Shown here: in pieces, positions 34,562-44,486 of the stretch
Numbering within the stretch: the stretch's first letter is position 1
How the letters are laid out: every line of letters begins with the position of its first letter
Source of the DNA: Microbacterium horticulturae
Lineage (GTDB): Bacteria > Actinomycetota > Actinomycetes > Actinomycetales > Microbacteriaceae
Assembly: GCF_029094505.1 (NCBI RefSeq)
Contig: NZ_CP119108.1
Location: forward strand, 2,914,001-2,978,000
Direction: 5' to 3'
Length of the DNA: 64,000 nt
The notes under the pieces: generated by a model
Told to the model about the DNA's origin: nothing
Databases searched by the model: none
The model's input: only the letters and a program-made list of their open reading frames with translations
Program-made: the position numbers and the translations under genes

Positions 34562-36940
34562 GTGACGTCGATCGACACCGCCACCGCAACGACGCCCGCC
34601 CGGGTGCTGGATGCCGCAGCTCGCGGCGCTCGGATCGACCTGGACGAGGCCGAGACGCTCCTGCATGCCGAGCAGGCTGATTTCGAGCGACTGCTCGAGG
34701 TCGCGGCATCCCTCCGCGACGAAGGACTCGCCGCAGCCGGCCGCCCCGGCGTCATCACGTACTCGCGCAAGGCGTTCCTGCCGCTGACGACGCTGTGCCG
34801 CGACCGCTGCCACTACTGCGTGTTCGTCGACACGCCCGGCCAGCTCGCGAAGCTTCACAAGCCCCTGTACATGTCGGCCGAGCAGGTGCTGCAGGTGGCA
34901 CGGCAGGCGCAGGCGCTCGGCTGCAAAGAGGCGCTGCTGACGCTCGGCGACAGGCCCGAAGACCGGTGGCCCGCCGCCCGCACCTGGCTTGACGAGCACG
35001 GCTACACCTCGACCCTCGACTACGTCGCGGCGATGGCGCGGCTCATCACGGCCTCCACCGACATGCTTGCGCACGCGAACCCCGGTGTCATGAGCCGTGC
35101 CGAACTCGACGCCATGCGCACAGCCACCCCGTCGATGGGCATGATGCTCGAGACCACCTCGCGCCGTCTCTACGAAGAGCCCGGCCAGGTGCACTACGGC
35201 TCGCCCGACAAAGACCCCGCCGTGCGCCTGCAGGTCATCGAAGACGCCGGAGCCGCCCGCATCCCGTTCACCACCGGCATCCTCGTCGGCATCGGCGAGA
35301 CCGTGCGCGACCGGGCCGAGTCGCTCGTCGCGATTCGGGCGGCGCACGAACGACACGGGCACGTGCAAGAGGTCATCGTCCAGAACTTCCGCGCGAAGCC
35401 GGGCACGGCGATGCGCGGCGCGCCCGATGCCGAACTGCGCGAGTACCTCGCGACGGTGGCCGTCGCCCGCATCGTGATGGGGCCACGGATGCGCATCCAG
35501 GTGCCGCCGAACCTCACCGACGCCGCCGAGCTCGAGCTGCTCGTGCGTGCGGGCATCGACGACTGGGGCGGCGTCTCACCGCTGACGGCCGACCATGTCA
35601 ATCCCGAACGGCCGTGGCCGCAGATCGACGACCTGGCCGCGCATACGGCGGCCGCCGGCTTCCGGCTGAACGAGCGCCTGACCGCGCATCCCGAATACGT
35701 GCGGGATGCCGCAACCTGGATCGACCCCGCCCTGCATGGCGCCGTCGCGGCCCTGGCCGATCCGGAGACGGGGCTGGCTCGATCCGACGCCCCGGCAGAT
35801 TCGGTGGGAAATACAGGCTCAATTCGCTCCAACCCCGCTCTCCGTGCCGGAAATGCGCATCTGAGCATGTTGACGGTACACACGGGCGCGCTGCCAGCAC
35901 TGGCCGAGGCCGCAGCATCCGCCCCCCTCTCGCTCGACGACGGCGACTGGGAGCGCCTGTTGCGCGCGACAGGCCGCGACCTCGATGCGCTGACCCAGAC
36001 GGCCGACGACGTGCGCCGGTACACGGTCGGCGAGGCCGTGAGCATCGTCGTGAACCGCAACCTCACGACGACCGGGTTCCGCGAGGCGCCCGCGGGCGAC
36101 CCCGCCACGTTCACGCTTGACGACGTCGCCGCGATAGCGGCCGATGCGCACGAGCTGGGCGCGACCGAGCTGTGCATCCAGGGGCGGGTGCCCGATGCTG
36201 CGGACCCCGCCGTCTACCTCGACATCGTGCGTGCGGCCAAGAGCGCAGCACCCGAGCTGCACCTGCACGCCTACCGCCCGCAGGACGTGTGGGACTTCGC
36301 CGAGCGCAGCGGCCTCGAACTCGATGCCGCGCTGCGCGCGCTGCGTGATGCGGGCGTGGGCACGGTGCCCGGCACCGGGGTGAAGGTGCTCTCCGAGCGG
36401 GTGCGGGCACTCGTCGCTCCCGGCGACCTCGAGATCGACCGGTGGACGGCGGGCATCACCGCTGCGCACCGAGCGGGCTTGCGTTCGACGAGCGTCCTGT
36501 TCTACGGGCACGTCGAGACCGCCGCCGAGCGAATCGCGCATCTGCGGGCGCTGCGGGCGATCCAGGGCGAGACCGGCGGCTTCGCCGAGTTCGTGCCGAT
36601 CCCGCTGCCGGCGCCGGCCGGCGGCGTTCCGCTCGTGGACGGACGCTCGCCCCTCGACGAGCACCGCGCGATGGTGGCCGTGTCGCGGCTGCTGCTGAAC
36701 GGGTCGATCCGGCACATCCAGATCCCGTGGACGCGCGTGGGCCGCGAGGTGACGAAGACGTTGCTGCAGTCGGGCGGTGACGACCTCGGCGGCACGCTGC
36801 TCGACGGGCGCGTGCGGCCGCAGGCGGGCATCGAGGCGGGACTCGAGCTGCCTGTCGCCGACGCGGCGGCGATGGCATCCCACCTCTTCCGCCCGTTCCG
36901 CCAGCGCGCCACCGACTATGCGGAGGTGCGGCGTGCGTGA
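34562..36940 (+). CDS. fbiC: FO synthase (CofGH fusion) lacking the CofH radical-SAM cysteines
   Basis: Bifunctional enzyme for 7,8-didemethyl-8-hydroxy-5-deazariboflavin (FO), the chromophore of F420; 792 residues. The CofG half (about 60-400) is intact: CRDRCHYC gives C79, C83, C86, followed by LTLGDRPEDRWP, SMGMMLETTSRRL and WGGVSPLTADHVNPERPWP. The CofH half is recognisable from VVNRN (residue 496) through ATELCIQG, VPGTGVKVLSERVR, FYGHVETAAERI, GGFAEFVPIPLP and HIQIPWTRVG, but where CofH proteins have CxxxCxxC directly after VVNRN, this one reads LTTTGFREAPAGDPATF, with no Cys and about 11 fewer residues. Downstream are fgd and cofC. See findings. Confidence 0.92.
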   Translation: MTSIDTATATTPARVLDAAARGARIDLDEAETLLHAEQADFERLLEVAASLRDEGLAAAGRPGVITYSRKAFLPLTTLCRDRCHYCVFVDTPGQLAKLHKPLYMSAEQVLQVARQAQALGCKEALLTLGDRPEDRWPAARTWLDEHGYTSTLDYVAAMARLITASTDMLAHANPGVMSRAELDAMRTATPSMGMMLETTSRRLYEEPGQVHYGSPDKDPAVRLQVIEDAGAARIPFTTGILVGIGETVRDRAESLVAIRAAHERHGHVQEVIVQNFRAKPGTAMRGAPDAELREYLATVAVARIVMGPRMRIQVPPNLTDAAELELLVRAGIDDWGGVSPLTADHVNPERPWPQIDDLAAHTAAAGFRLNERLTAHPEYVRDAATWIDPALHGAVAALADPETGLARSDAPADSVGNTGSIRSNPALRAGNAHLSMLTVHTGALPALAEAAASAPLSLDDGDWERLLRATGRDLDALTQTADDVRRYTVGEAVSIVVNRNLTTTGFREAPAGDPATFTLDDVAAIAADAHELGATELCIQGRVPDAADPAVYLDIVRAAKSAAPELHLHAYRPQDVWDFAERSGLELDAALRALRDAGVGTVPGTGVKVLSERVRALVAPGDLEIDRWTAGITAAHRAGLRSTSVLFYGHVETAAERIAHLRALRAIQGETGGFAEFVPIPLPAPAGGVPLVDGRSPLDEHRAMVAVSRLLLNGSIRHIQIPWTRVGREVTKTLLQSGGDDLGGTLLDGRVRPQAGIEAGLELPVADAAAMASHLFRPFRQRATDYAEVRRA

Positions 36941-36989: not shown

Positions 36990-37017
36990 CGTTGAGCGAG
37001 CGCAGCGAGTCGAAACG
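36990..37017 (+). repeat. GAGCGAGCGCAGCGAG repeat element at a gene start
   Basis: The stretch TTGAGCGAGCGCAGCGAGTC and following AAACG is a sequence I remember as a very common intergenic repeat in actinobacterial genomes. Here it forms the first nine codons of the monooxygenase gene. Confidence 0.4.
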
Positions 37018-38503
37018 ACCGCCCGGACAGAATCCTGAGCCCCGGCATCTCCCCGATCGCGTCAACGCCGTCATCGTGGGCGCGGGATTCGCCGGGCTGG
37101 CCGCGGCCATGGCCCTGCGCGCGCAGGGGATCGACGACTTCCTCGTGATCGAGCGCGGCCCGTCGGTCGGGGGCACCTGGCGCGACAACACCTACCCGGG
37201 TGTCGCGTGCGACATCCCGAGCCACCTGTACGGCTTCGCGAACCACCCGAACCCGCAGTGGTCAGGCCTGTTCGCGCGCGGCGATGAGATCCGCGCGTAC
37301 CTGGAGCGGGTCGCCGGCCTCGAGCGCATCGCGCCCCTGCTGAACACGACGATGCTCGATGCACGCTGGGACGACGGCGTCTGGCGCGTGCGCTGTAGCG
37401 GTGCGCATGCGGGCGAGATCGCGGCATCCACTCTCCTGCTGGCCTGCGGGCGGCTCACCGAGCCGAAGATCCCCGACGTGCCGGGGCTCGAGTCGTTCCC
37501 GGGGCCGATCTTCCACTCCGCGCGCTGGGACCACACCACCGACCTGCGCGGCGCGCGGGTCGCGGTGATCGGCACCGGCGCGACTGCCGTGCAACTCGTG
37601 CCCGAGCTCGCGAAGGTCGCCGAGGTGACGCTGTTCCAGCGCACCCCGGCGTGGATAGTGCCGCGCGACGACCGCGCCTACTCCCCCGCCGAGCGCGCGT
37701 CGTTCACCGCCGACCCGGCCGTGCTGGCCCGGCTGCGCGACGAGCTCTATGCCGAGGGCGAGGCGCGGTTCGCGTCGCGGTCGGGTGATCGGGATGCCGC
37801 GGCCGCCGCTCGCGCGGTGGCACTGCAGCACCTCGCCGAGCAGGTCCCCGACCGCGCGCTGCGCCGCGCGCTGACGCCCGACTATGCGTTCGGCTGCAAG
37901 CGCGTGCTGCTCTCCGACGCGTTCTACCCGGCGCTCTCGTCGGGTGCGGTGACCCTCGAGGCCTCGGCGCTGGCCGCCGTCGAGGGGTCGACCCTCGTCG
38001 CTGCGAGCGGCGGGCGGCACACCGTCGACGCGGTCGTGCTCGCGACCGGGTTCGAGTCGACCGAGCAGCCCTATGCCGACCTGGTCCGCGGCGAGCACGA
38101 CACCCTGGCCGCACACTGGGATCGCGGCATGACCTCGTTCGGCTCGACCGTGGTCGCCGGGTTCCCGAACCTGTTCGTGCTCGACGGACCGAACGCATCG
38201 CTCGGCCACAACTCGTCGGTGCTCATGATCGAGGCACAGGCCGCGTACGCGGCACGCACCCTCGCGCGGCATCCCGGTGTGCGGCGGGTCGATCCGGCCG
38301 CCGAAGATGCCTACACCGACGAGATCGACCGGGCCGCGGCATCCACCCCCTGGATCTCGGGGGGATGCCGCAACTGGTACGTCGACGAGAGGTCGGGCCG
38401 ACTGACCCTGCTGTGGCCCGGAACCGTCGACGCGTTCCGAGCGACGCTCGACACCGACGGGGGCGAGTTCTTGCCCGTGACGATCGAAAGAGGAGCACGA
38501 TGA
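36992..38503 (+). CDS. Baeyer-Villiger-type flavin monooxygenase
   Basis: FAD- and NADPH-dependent class B monooxygenase, 503 residues, cytosolic. FAD loop VIVGAGFAGLAAA near residue 28; the Baeyer-Villiger fingerprint FPGPIFHSARWD is exact (FxGxxxHxxxW-D); the NADPH loop is VAVIGTGATAVQLVP; ATGF is near residue 350. Such enzymes insert oxygen next to ketones, and some related enzymes in actinobacteria use F420 partners. The start is TTG at 36992 with GGGAGG 8 bp upstream; no ATG or GTG exists before the FAD loop. It lies 51 bp after fbiC and overlaps fgd by 4 bp. The substrate is unknown. Confidence 0.9.
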   Translation: MSERSESKRPPGQNPEPRHLPDRVNAVIVGAGFAGLAAAMALRAQGIDDFLVIERGPSVGGTWRDNTYPGVACDIPSHLYGFANHPNPQWSGLFARGDEIRAYLERVAGLERIAPLLNTTMLDARWDDGVWRVRCSGAHAGEIAASTLLLACGRLTEPKIPDVPGLESFPGPIFHSARWDHTTDLRGARVAVIGTGATAVQLVPELAKVAEVTLFQRTPAWIVPRDDRAYSPAERASFTADPAVLARLRDELYAEGEARFASRSGDRDAAAAARAVALQHLAEQVPDRALRRALTPDYAFGCKRVLLSDAFYPALSSGAVTLEASALAAVEGSTLVAASGGRHTVDAVVLATGFESTEQPYADLVRGEHDTLAAHWDRGMTSFGSTVVAGFPNLFVLDGPNASLGHNSSVLMIEAQAAYAARTLARHPGVRRVDPAAEDAYTDEIDRAAASTPWISGGCRNWYVDERSGRLTLLWPGTVDAFRATLDTDGGEFLPVTIERGAR

Positions 38504-39507
38504 TGCTGCGATTCGGATACAAGGCCTCGAGCGAGCAGTTCGGACCCAACGAGCTGCTGAGGTTCGGCGTGCTCGCCGAAGAGATGGGGTTCGACTCGGT
38601 CTTCCTCTCCGACCACTTTCAGCCCTGGATGCACGAGGGCGGGCACGCGCCGGCGACTCTCCCCTGGCTGGGCGCGCTGGGTGCGCAGACCGAACGGGTG
38701 CTCATCGGCACCTCGGTGCTGACCCCGACCTTCCGGTACCACCCGGCCGTGATCGCCCAGGCGTTCGCGACACTGGGCGTGATGTACCCCGAGCGGGTGA
38801 TCCTGGGTGTGGGCACCGGCGAGGCCCTGAACGAGGTGACGCTGGGACTGGAATGGCCCGACTCGCCCGAGCGGTTCCAGCGGCTCAAGGAGTCGATCAC
38901 GCTGATCCGCGAGCTGTGGCGCGGCGAGCGCGTTACGTTTGACGGCAACTTCTGGCACGTGCAGGATGCCACGATCTACGACCGTCCCGAACACGAGGTG
39001 CCGATCTACATCGGCGCATCGGGGCCGGCGGCGACCCGGCTGGCGGGCCGCATCGCCGACGGGTACATCACCACGAGCGGCAAAGATCCGGCCCTGTACT
39101 CCGACACACTGCTCCCGGCGCTGCAGGAGGGGCTTTCGAAGGCCGGGCGTGCCGCCGATGACGTCGACACCCTCATGGAGGTCAAGGTCTCGTACCACCC
39201 CGACCACGAGACCGCGCTCGAGAAGACGCGCTTCTGGGCGCCGCTGGCGCTGAAGCCCGAAGAGAAGCGCGATGTGCACGACCCGATCGAGATGCAGCGG
39301 CGCGCGGCCGAGCTGCCGATCGAGCGTGTGGCATCCCGCTTCATCGTCTCCACCGACCCCGATGAGCACGTCGAGCAGATCGGAAAGTACATCGACCTGG
39401 GGTTCCGGCACCTGGTGTTCCACGACCCGGGCTTCGACCAGGAGGAGTTCCTGCGCATGTACGGCGCCGAGATCCTTCCGCGGCTGCGTGCGCGCTACGG
39501 AGACTGA
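38500..39507 (+). CDS. fgd: F420-dependent glucose-6-phosphate dehydrogenase
   Basis: Luciferase-like (LLM) F420 enzyme that oxidises glucose-6-phosphate and makes reduced F420; 335 residues, cytosolic. It matches FGD1 closely: LRFGYKASSEQF start, SDHFQPW (catalytic His and Trp), LLGTSVLTPTFRYHPAVIAQ-type block (here LIGTSVLTPTF), GVGTGEALNE (catalytic Glu), TSGK and VSYHPDHETA, RFWAPLALKPEEK. ATG at 38500 overlaps the monooxygenase stop, AGGAG upstream. Its presence shows that the cell makes F420 and reduces it through sugar phosphate, despite the odd fbiC. Confidence 0.95.
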   Translation: MMLRFGYKASSEQFGPNELLRFGVLAEEMGFDSVFLSDHFQPWMHEGGHAPATLPWLGALGAQTERVLIGTSVLTPTFRYHPAVIAQAFATLGVMYPERVILGVGTGEALNEVTLGLEWPDSPERFQRLKESITLIRELWRGERVTFDGNFWHVQDATIYDRPEHEVPIYIGASGPAATRLAGRIADGYITTSGKDPALYSDTLLPALQEGLSKAGRAADDVDTLMEVKVSYHPDHETALEKTRFWAPLALKPEEKRDVHDPIEMQRRAAELPIERVASRFIVSTDPDEHVEQIGKYIDLGFRHLVFHDPGFDQEEFLRMYGAEILPRLRARYGD

Positions 39508-39545: not shown

Positions 39546-39628
39546 GTTCAGAACTCCGTCGATCCGTGCGCCGCGCGCGGTGTTTCGCCTGTCCGGAGGC
39601 CCGACGTGCCACGATCGGCTGAGTTCTG
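39546..39628. repeat. inverted repeat of the GTTCAGAACTC family
   Basis: CAGAACTC at 39549-39556 pairs with GAGTTCTG at 39621-39628; the left arm context TGTTCAGAACTCCG resembles 14640-14653. The right arm lies in codons 6-8 of cofC. Confidence 0.35.
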
Positions 39629-40265
39629 CGCAGACTGGGCCGTCGTCATCCCGGTCAAGCCGTCCGCGCACGGCAAGTCGCGCCTGACCGGGGTCGACGA
39701 TCGCGCAGCACTGGCGCGCGCCATAGCGCTCGACACGATCGAGGCGGCCTCCCGGGCATGCGCGGTGGTCGTGGTCACTGCCGACGCCGAGGTCGCCGCC
39801 GCGGCGCGTGCCCTTGGCGCTCGGGTGGTCGACGAGACCGCGCCGACAGGGCTGAACGCGGCGATCGCGGCGGGGGTGGATGCCGCCGGCCCGGGTCATC
39901 GCGCGGCCATGCTCGGTGACCTGCCGGCGCTGCGCCCTGTGGACCTCGCCGACGCGCTGCGGCGGGCTTCGGCGCTCGATCGCGCGGTGGTGCCCGACGC
40001 CGAAGGCACCGGGTCGACCCTGATCACCGCGCGCGCCGGTGTGGCGTGGGCTGCGGCGTTCGGGGCTGACTCGCTGCGCCGGCACGTCGAGCTGGGATGC
40101 ACCGTGCTGGATGCCGGGCCTTCCCTGCGTCGGGATGTCGACACCCCCGACCAGCTTGCGGCCGCGGCCCGCCTCGGACTCGGCGTGCGATCGACGGCGC
40201 TCACGAGGCACCGTTACCCTGGGGAAGAAGTCACCCCGACCGAGGAGAAGGACGGCAGACGATGA
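39606..40265 (+). CDS. cofC: 2-phospho-L-lactate (or PEP) guanylyltransferase
   Basis: Nucleotidyltransferase that activates 2-phospholactate or phosphoenolpyruvate with GTP for the side chain of F420; 219 residues, CofC/FbiD family. Seen: VVIPVKPSAHGKSRLTGVDD at the N-terminus (GTP site, Lys and Arg), VVTADAEVAAAARALGA, AAMLGDLPALRP with the metal-binding Asp, and DAEGTGSTLITA. The start is GTG at 39606. It lies 98 bp after fgd and its stop overlaps the ATG of the ESX-like gene, so F420 and secretion genes are translated from one message. Confidence 0.9.
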   Translation: MPRSAEFCADWAVVIPVKPSAHGKSRLTGVDDRAALARAIALDTIEAASRACAVVVVTADAEVAAAARALGARVVDETAPTGLNAAIAAGVDAAGPGHRAAMLGDLPALRPVDLADALRRASALDRAVVPDAEGTGSTLITARAGVAWAAAFGADSLRRHVELGCTVLDAGPSLRRDVDTPDQLAAAARLGLGVRSTALTRHRYPGEEVTPTEEKDGRR

Positions 40266-40549
40266 GCGACCGGATCACGATCGATTTCACCCAGGTCGCC
40301 GATGCGGCCGACCAGCTGTCGTCGGCGGCTTCCCGCATCGATGGCATCCTCACGACGCTCGACCAGAAGCTCGACGGCCTCGAGACGGAGTGGACCGGCG
40401 CGGCGTTCGAGTCCTACCGGCGGATGCGGCAGGACTGGTGCACCCACATGGCCGCTCTGCAGGCGCGGCTCGCATCGTACGCGAAGGTGCTTGAGACCAG
40501 CGGCAGTGCGATGCACAAGACGGAGTCGACACTGGCGAAGTCCTTCTGA
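40262..40549 (+). CDS. WXG100 family (ESX/type VII secretion) protein
   Basis: 95-residue helical-hairpin protein of the EsxA/WXG100 family, probably exported by a type VII secretion system as a dimer. The turn motif is TEWTGAAFESYRRM (W-x-G at about residues 47-49), between two amphipathic helices. The C-terminus KTESTLAKSF lacks an obvious YxxxD/E signal. ATG overlaps the cofC stop; the next gene overlaps by one base. No ESX ATPase or membrane core gene lies in the window. Confidence 0.88.
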   Translation: MSDRITIDFTQVADAADQLSSAASRIDGILTTLDQKLDGLETEWTGAAFESYRRMRQDWCTHMAALQARLASYAKVLETSGSAMHKTESTLAKSF

Positions 40550-43532: not shown

Positions 43533-44486
43533 TTACGCGTCCAACGCCGCCTGCGCGACACCCTCGCTCGCGGCGGCGTCGTTCATCCACAGCGGAGCGA
43601 CGACCGGATGGATGCCGCAGCCCTGCACCGCGGGCGCGAGAGCGGCGTCCTCCTCGGCCATCACCCAGGCGTCGAGCAGGCCGCCCTCGGCGCGCGCGCC
43701 GTAGTGCGCCGCCACCGCGTCGGAGCGTGTCTCGACACCGATCGCGGTCAAGCACACGTCCGCCATGCCGCGCACGACCTTGCCACCGATGATTCCCGAG
43801 ACACCGACGACGCGCTTCGCCGCCTGAACGGCCTCGCGGATGCCCGGCACCGCGAGGATCGGCCCGATCGACACGACGGGATTCGAGGGTGCCAGCAGCA
43901 CGAGGTCGGCGGCGGCGATCGCCTCGAGCACCCCGGGCGCGGGAACGGCTGCCTCGATACCGGGGTTCTCGAACGCGCGCGGCGCGATGGTCGCACGGTG
44001 ACGCGTCCACCACTCCTGAAAGTGCATCCGCCCGGCATCGGTGACCACGTGCGTGTCGACCTCGGTGTCGGTCATGGGCACCAGGTGCGCGCCGAGGGGC
44101 CAGCGCTGCGAAAGGCGCTCGACCACCTGGCTGACCGACAGGCCCTCGCGCAGCCAGCCGGTGCGGGCCAGGTGCGTTCCCAGGTCGAGGTCGCCCAGGG
44201 TGAACCACGGCCAGCCGGCACCCCAGGCCTGCAACTCGGCGTTCACCCGCTCCGTGTCGCCGGTTCTCCCCCAGCCGCGCACGGTGTCGTTCTGCCCGGC
44301 GAGCGCATAGAGCACCGAGTCGATGTCGGGCTGCAGGCGCACGCCCGACAGCCAGAGGTCGTCGCCGGTATTGACCACCACCGTCGCTTCCGGAGCCTGG
44401 GCGCGCGCGAGGGCGGCGCGCACCCCGAGGGTGAACTTGGCGCCGCCGACACCGCCGGCGAGCACGACGACGCGAAGGGATGTCAC
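43533..44486 (-). CDS. cofD: 2-phospho-L-lactate transferase (F420 biosynthesis)
   Basis: CofD/FbiA, joins the phospholactyl (or phosphoenolpyruvyl) group to FO, giving F420-0 (or dehydro-F420-0); 317 residues. The opening VVVLAGGVGGAKFTLGV is the GDP/LPPG site, VVNTGDDLWLSGVRLQPDID and YALAGQNDTVRGWGRTGDT are family hallmarks binding FO, and VLLAPSNPVVSIGPILAVPGI the phosphate site. The start is ATG at 44486. It is separated from cofC by the six ESX-associated genes. The glutamate ligase CofE/FbiB is not in the window. Confidence 0.95.
   Translation of the reverse strand: MTSLRVVVLAGGVGGAKFTLGVRAALARAQAPEATVVVNTGDDLWLSGVRLQPDIDSVLYALAGQNDTVRGWGRTGDTERVNAELQAWGAGWPWFTLGDLDLGTHLARTGWLREGLSVSQVVERLSQRWPLGAHLVPMTDTEVDTHVVTDAGRMHFQEWWTRHRATIAPRAFENPGIEAAVPAPGVLEAIAAADLVLLAPSNPVVSIGPILAVPGIREAVQAAKRVVGVSGIIGGKVVRGMADVCLTAIGVETRSDAVAAHYGARAEGGLLDAWVMAEEDAALAPAVQGCGIHPVVAPLWMNDAAASEGVAQAALDA

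Follow-up and report, generated by a model that had tools for sequence, protein, structure and literature searches.

Many actinobacteria seem to make coenzyme F420 with a cluster-less CofH and a neighbouring monooxygenase

Many actinobacteria, including Microbacteriaceae, Kineococcus, Gordonia and others, seem to make coenzyme F420 with a CofH that has lost its cluster-binding motif and whose gene lies beside that of a monooxygenase. The case studied here comes from a 64,000-nucleotide stretch of the Microbacterium horticulturae genome (NZ_CP119108.1, positions 2,914,001 to 2,978,000; the window), in which the gene for 7,8-didemethyl-8-hydroxy-5-deazariboflavin (FO) synthase, fbiC*, encodes an intact CofG fused to a CofH half without the cluster cysteines (CofH*) and is followed by a gene for a type I Baeyer-Villiger monooxygenase (BVMO)-like flavoprotein. 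On genomic evidence alone, CofH* and the adjacent BVMO probably replace the radical S-adenosylmethionine (SAM) CofH in the synthesis of FO, and hence of F420, because the two genes are strictly paired, stay together through rearrangements, do not follow the CofG tree, show no decay and occur with the other F420 genes but without a second CofH, and because the BVMO carries the features of its class. The oxygen-using monooxygenase encoded beside the cluster-less CofH points to an oxygen-dependent route, so far unrecognised, to a step for which radical chemistry is believed necessary. In PMC8498797, FO synthesis is described as universally requiring two radical-SAM domains: CofH converts tyrosine to a 4-hydroxybenzyl radical, which is added to 5-amino-6-ribitylaminouracil, and CofG closes the ring. 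Neither a Cys-less CofH nor a BVMO in FO synthesis was found in the openly licensed literature when it was searched by title and the start of the abstract.

Loss and distribution of the CofH cluster motif

The fbiC* gene (34562..36940, plus strand; 792 aa, GTG start) was called from its open reading frame and profile scores and has the FbiC architecture of an intact CofG half fused to a CofH-like half. The CofG half (34562..35797, plus strand) carries the radical-SAM motif CRDRCHYC (codons 79-86, 34796-34819) and scored 473.1 bits against TIGR03550 (cut-off 213.35), in agreement with an earlier annotation made from the letters of the window (the sequence-only reading), which had called CofG intact. 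Within the CofH* half (35915..36925, plus strand), LTTTGFREAPAGDPATFTL comes after the conserved VVNRN, in the place of the cysteine loop of canonical relatives, and the site of the absent CxxxCxxC loop (36053..36115, plus strand; codons 498-518) reads NRN-LTTTGFREAPAGDPATFT. Comparison with canonical Microbacteriaceae FbiC confirmed that the motif and its three cysteines are absent, as the sequence-only reading had it, but the region before TL[DS] is shorter by ~9 residues and not by ~11. Scores fell below the cut-offs both for the CofH half against TIGR03551 (320.2 bits, cut-off 374.1) and for the whole protein against the bifunctional FbiC model NF006687 (922.8 bits, cut-off 1018).

What had been treated as the oddity of one strain turned out to be widespread, conserved and apparently moving horizontally. 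FbiC was found in 33 of 150 sampled Microbacteriaceae genomes, Cys-less in 24 and Cys-bearing in 9 (a 34th match was weak and partial), and the TIGR03551 cut-off separated the two classes completely, with 24/24 Cys-less genomes below and 9/9 canonical ones above. Sequencing error or decay in a single strain is ruled out by this recurrence in many genomes, together with the purifying dN/dS values (ratio of nonsynonymous to synonymous substitution rates) given below. All 24 Cys-less genomes had CofD and CofE matches above the Pfam cut-offs (one CofD being a contig-edge fragment), and none had a second CofH, every TIGR03551 match lying within the same FbiC gene. A scan of named genomes gave loci mostly from Microbacterium, plus Cryobacterium and Frigoribacterium, of which the best 80 were all without the motif or an in-frame stop; these were picked by similarity to the Cys-less profile (at least 595 stretches, 282 confirmed, best 80 taken), and the figure is not a frequency. 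The genome of Microbacterium ureisolvens HU12 carries the FbiC*-BVMO locus twice, at separate places (L147, L149), and a record titled 'Planococcus sp. APC 4015' (L168) holds a Microbacterium-like FbiC*-BVMO locus, the assembly probably being mislabelled or contaminated.

Standalone Cys-less CofH proteins of ~330-420 residues occur in Gordonia, Williamsia, Nocardia, Rhodococcus, Kineococcus, Actinomycetospora, Actinoplanes and others. The motif was absent from 218/218 standalone homologues among the matches listed (the best 120 of 2139 and the best 120 of 1586); Williamsia, Nocardia, Rhodococcus, Actinoplanes and others are known from these protein lists only and stand outside the pairing counts below. 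Each of the 26 Cys-less genomes tested from other families had two CofD-superfamily matches, one of 235-254 and one of 162-196 bits; the latter was taken as CofD because its score resembles that of the window's CofD (168). In databases, CofH* proteins bear the names 'FO synthase', 'CofG' or 'tyrosine 4-hydroxyphenyl transferase', which hide the difference from canonical CofH.

Strict pairing of CofH* with a BVMO

A BVMO gene lies directly downstream, on the same strand, of 23 of the 24 Cys-less Microbacteriaceae FbiC genes. For the remaining one (G116), the contig ends ~145 bp past the FbiC match, and a BVMO of the same group opens another contig. No BVMO was found next to the canonical FbiC in any of the nine Microbacteriaceae genomes that have one; two of these have weaker relatives on other contigs and seven have none at E <= 1e-20. 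Across the order (396 genomes sampled), the 63 genomes with a strong CofH match comprised 30 Cys-less, 32 Cys-bearing (counting G171, which carries CTFKCRFC) and one unclassed at a contig end (G165). A BVMO match started 12-902 bp after the CofH match in 30/30 Cys-less cases, one of them the window, and was next door in 0/32 Cys-bearing ones. Among the named loci the BVMO was present in 79/80; in the other one, the contig stops 332 bp past the CofH match.

The same pattern was seen more widely. Outside the order, the class-wide search matched 273/394 genomes, of which 30 loci (8 already counted) and 10 regions were inspected: 5/5 Cys-less loci, selected by match length, had the BVMO, as against 0/26 Cys-bearing CofH, of which two have <300 bp downstream and two more <750. 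The Mycobacteriales search matched 262/298 genomes, with 30 loci and four regions inspected; both Cys-less loci had the BVMO (one, G665, repeating the class search), and 0/28 inspected Cys-bearing CofH did, a set that shares genomes with the class-wide 26. One further search matched 32 genomes, which lie outside these counts. These surveys overlap in part and share ancestry, and their counts were neither summed nor treated as independent. In a linkage screen of the Cys-less Microbacteriaceae loci, only fbiC and the BVMO were near-universal, the luciferase-like monooxygenase (LLM)/Fgd, CofD and CofC genes less so. The evolutionary distances of CofH* and BVMO are also correlated over 48 loci (r 0.78; partial 0.62 given CofG).

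One module beside many CofGs

CofH* and the BVMO form one module in many ARRANGEMENTS, and gene order varies between loci. Besides the fused FbiC* followed by the BVMO, we found standalone CofH*-BVMO whose nearby CofG is encoded on the opposite strand, in divergent or convergent orientation (families f15, including Kineococcus, and f8), CofH*-BVMO-CofG with overlapping frames (L276, Gordonia by protein identity) and CofG-CofH*-BVMO (L312). In every arrangement CofH* adjoins the BVMO, and only in some does it adjoin CofG.

With the cluster-loop columns removed, all Cys-less CofH fell on one side of a branch with a support of 100 in the Shimodaira-Hasegawa-like approximate likelihood ratio test (SH-aLRT). 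The adjacent BVMOs and that of G116 likewise formed one side of a branch (SH-aLRT 100), the other sampled BVMO-like genes lying outside, in a tree with seven rows cut short and some long branches flagged. The CofGs of the Cys-less loci, in contrast, are not one group: such a grouping was rejected by the approximately unbiased (AU) test (p 5.5e-6), and the CofG tree needs at least 5 changes between classes on well-supported branches. The Gordonia CofG is the neighbour (support 94) of a canonical CofG with the same genus code, and the f15 CofGs share a well-supported group with canonical CofGs, one of them from f15 itself. The trees were quick and unrooted, with 74/104 CofG and 74/105 CofH sequences (30 and 31 omitted by hand, not all of them near-duplicates).

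We take the Cys-less CofH as the derived side because the cluster motif is common to the superfamily. Since CofH* and the BVMO each form a single group and their CofGs do not, the pair appears to have been swapped onto resident CofGs several times, apparently by transfer of the pair. On the simplest reading of the trees, a single origin of the CofH*-BVMO cassette was followed by its repeated exchange for the radical-SAM CofH beside a resident CofG, which argues that the cassette would do the same job. According to PMC8498797, the two domains of FbiC seem to function independently, an intermediate diffusing between them, so a module swap of this kind should be feasible.

CofH* looks refitted rather than decaying

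Residue changes were compared in an alignment of 57 Cys-less and 48 canonical CofH sequences, a column being called constant at >=95% in the canonical set. Of the canonical-constant columns, 53 are retained in the Cys-less set and 47 lost, a loss wider than that of the cysteines, which corrects the sequence-only reading. Besides the cysteines and their loop, the losses include QGG's second glycine, the PGTAAEI glutamate (replaced mostly by R or K in Cys-less CofH) and the MEE..SR stretch, constants that we take to be SAM-site residues. The canonical G, E, E and R are lost at residues 542, 608, 749 and 753 of the window's FbiC*. Five class-specific residues were gained: R572 and E652 (each in 57/57), G749, P753 and L763. 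In the CofG of the Cys-less loci, 120 constant columns were kept, 1 was lost and none gained. CofH* thus looks refitted, not decaying, as it loses canonical constants yet gains new ones while CofG changes little. The dN/dS values between the window and seven relatives (0.22-0.36 for CofH*, 0.15-0.26 for CofG and 0.26-0.33 for the BVMO) indicate that CofH* is under purifying selection.

The CofH* half retains a (beta/alpha) barrel homologous to that of CofH and MqnE, and the AlphaFold model shows this barrel with confidence. The only solved relative of the CofH* profile was MqnE (PDB 6xi9/6xig, E 1.9e-50), and Foldseek with the whole FbiC* model likewise ranked MqnE entries first (matched range not given).

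The BVMO and the F420 locus

The sequence-only reading was correct in placing cofC, cofD and fgd around FbiC, and all three exceed their NCBIfam cut-offs, but it overlooked the BVMO gene directly downstream (36992..38503, plus strand; the TTG start as listed is provisional). By its sequence this neighbour is a type I BVMO homologue, with predicted Baeyer-Villiger activity. The fingerprint FxGxxxHxxxW[P/D] is present (37496..37528, plus strand; FxGxxxHxxxW at codons 169-179) and reads FPGPIFHSARWD. Its F, G, H and W were found in 43/43 near-full-length BVMOs (of 56), with D or P after the W in 31. Also invariant in the 43 were the dinucleotide-binding motifs for flavin adenine dinucleotide (FAD) and NADP (G30/G32/G35 and G194/G196), D74 and R304; the equivalence of the Asp and Arg was set by alignment to 7v8o, and we presume that they have the catalytic roles of their counterparts there. 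The nearest solved relatives, by sequence and fold, are cyclohexanone and phenylacetone monooxygenases, the latter being the top fold match. A second BVMO-like gene of this genome (G000:C1:1039258-1040661, L346) is 43% identical to the window's and lies outside the CofH*-linked group. A small alpha/beta-hydrolase-like gene sits between FbiC* and the BVMO in 11/23 loci, and in two loci it is joined to the N-terminus of the BVMO; loci with such a gene are L073, L077 (fused), L074, L075, L078-L082, L084, L086, L209 and L248.

The BVMO is followed by fgd, for the F420-using F420-dependent glucose-6-phosphate dehydrogenase (38500..39507, plus strand; start set by eye at MMLRFGYK; TIGR03554 466.2 bits, cut-off 420), and by cofC, for 2-phospholactate guanylyltransferase (39606..40265, plus strand; TIGR03552 130, cut-off 105). 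The cofD gene, for FO 2-phospholactate transferase, lies on the minus strand (43533..44486; TIGR01819 309.5, cut-off 257.45), and a CofE homologue is encoded in the genome outside the window. Just 3' of cofC, 40262-40549 reads as an open reading frame for a WXG100-like small protein, followed by a run of small minus-strand open reading frames that could be an ESX-like cluster.

The sequence-only reading had raised the option that another radical-SAM protein supplies the CofH step, an option that found no support. The window's genome (G000) is one contig, and CofH-like matches occur on it only within this FbiC; profile search gave neither a second CofH nor another radical-SAM substitute. An inventory resting on the Radical_SAM profile PF04055 alone gave 9 matches, 8 above the cut-off, this FbiC included. 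From their sequences we read the others as presumed MoaA, MiaB, HemW, LipA, SplB-like, NrdG-like and RlmN.

Discussion

A chemical route can be sketched from known reactions. Phenylacetone monooxygenase converts aryl-CH2-CO-R to the ester aryl-CH2-O-CO-R, a 4-hydroxybenzyl ester readily sheds its acyl group to give a p-quinone methide, and C5 of 5-amino-6-ribitylaminouracil is nucleophilic. The BVMO, using FAD, NADPH and O2, could oxidise a 4-hydroxybenzyl ketone or aldehyde derived from tyrosine, 4-hydroxyphenylpyruvate being the simplest candidate, and insert oxygen beside the benzylic carbon in the manner of phenylacetone monooxygenase. The 4-hydroxybenzyl ester so formed would collapse to the p-quinone methide, perhaps assisted by the alpha/beta-hydrolase where one is present. 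The CofH* barrel, with about half of the canonical constants kept, would hold 5-amino-6-ribitylaminouracil, whose C5 would attack the quinone methide; the adduct would be the same as that of canonical CofH, and the intact radical-SAM CofG would convert it to FO. Alternatively, within the same replacement of CofH, the BVMO may oxidise the uracil or a preformed conjugate. FO as the product, the substrate of the BVMO and the quinone methide are thus parts that we infer. As a whole, an O2-dependent, non-radical deazaflavin route in which the BVMO makes a p-quinone methide equivalent and a cluster-less CofH*, several times swapped in, acts as 4-hydroxybenzyl transferase to the diaminouracil is a tentative proposal, which we hold to be possible but rather less than an even prospect.

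Several observations count against replacement of CofH by the pair, or against this chemistry. The CofH* loci are not independent, as CofH* and the BVMO each seem to have arisen once, and the only five independent contrasts on the CofG tree all agree but are too few for significance (p 0.0625, with BVMO status set equal to Cys status following the pairing tables). In one linked BVMO (G037) the fingerprint W is replaced by Y, and in another set of 27 this W is near-constant rather than invariant. Homologues among the flavin-containing monooxygenases (FMOs) and BVMOs act on varied substrates. By chemical precedent, peroxides tend to cause decarboxylation of 2-keto acids, and the substrate may therefore be something other than 4-hydroxyphenylpyruvate. 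The hydrolase cannot be essential, judging from its presence in 11/23 loci, in about five of which it appears by eye to be without the normal nucleophile serine. Three CofH* or FbiC* copies look broken by a stop or by lying in two frames (G099 L022, G350 L241, G238 L242), either through assembly errors or through real loss. No FO or F420 measurement was found for any CofH* strain.

The sequence-only reading had also offered a scaffold and a variant route; each was partly right, in that the data point to a cluster-less CofH, now paired with a BVMO. If CofH*, the BVMO and CofG made a deazaflavin other than FO, or if the BVMO modified FO or F420, a variant cofactor would be in use. The heavily altered CofH* pocket (47 canonical constants lost, five class-specific residues gained) and the monooxygenase always next door would suit this, but CofG is nearly unchanged, the window's CofC, CofD and Fgd exceed their cut-offs, CofD and CofE accompany all 24 Cys-less Microbacteriaceae FbiC, and the seemingly repeated replacement of canonical CofH beside a native CofG would be easiest with an identical product; we consider a variant product unlikely. 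A scaffold, in which the single-cluster CofG would perform both radical steps, CofH* would only bind tyrosine or diaminouracil and the BVMO would have another role, is more doubtful still. In its favour, no radical-SAM site of the CofG/CofH type other than that of CofG was found in the genome; yet CofG has no class-specific new residue, the strict BVMO pairing would be left unexplained, and standalone CofH* may sit apart from CofG but was never seen apart from the BVMO.

The pairing would also mean little if the BVMO merely hitch-hiked in the F420 cluster while an unlinked enzyme performed the CofH step. BVMO/FMO genes are numerous in actinobacteria, and some of these genomes have related genes at other places; however, only the adjacent BVMO group tracks CofH*, across several gene orders and families, and the distance correlation persists given CofG, making such hitch-hiking very improbable. 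The least credible explanation is that CofH is dying while FO or the CofH product is imported from neighbours. The three broken-looking copies fit decay, and 3/11 examined FbiC-less Microbacteriaceae (G006, G016, G021; L097-L099) keep CofD and CofE; with no FbiC or CofH match, these three are possible FO scavengers, and because of them FO salvage may exist in the family. A pure FO importer, however, would need neither FbiC half, whereas here CofG is kept and CofH* is under apparent purifying selection, retains 53 canonical constants, gains new ones and has apparently spread onto other CofGs.

If CofH* and the BVMO do replace CofH, one of the two oxygen-sensitive steps of FO synthesis has a flavin/O2 replacement, a radical-SAM fold without its cluster has stayed in the same pathway, and F420 production in ordinary aerobic hosts could benefit.

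The FbiC* of the window resembles the known FbiC and CofG-CofH FO synthases (NF006687, TIGR03550, TIGR03551) in its fusion, intact CofG, homologous CofH barrel and nearby F420 genes. It differs from canonical FbiC in a CofH half that has no CxxxCxxC or SAM-site constants, scores below the CofH cut-off and is paired with a BVMO. The aminofutalosine synthase MqnE, the only solved relative of CofH*, is a radical-SAM enzyme of menaquinone synthesis; unlike CofH*, it retains its cluster, and its product is unrelated. The BVMO shares the fingerprint, the two dinucleotide-binding motifs, the Asp and Arg and the fold with type I enzymes such as phenylacetone (1w4x, 4d03) and cyclohexanone (7v8o) monooxygenase, but is only ~26% identical to them in fold alignments and belongs to a separate group tied to CofH*. 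A parallel is offered by HemF and HemN, an O2-using and a radical-SAM enzyme that serve one pathway step. The CofH*-BVMO loci differ in that the radical-SAM homologue itself would be retained, cluster-less, as the partner of the oxygenase.

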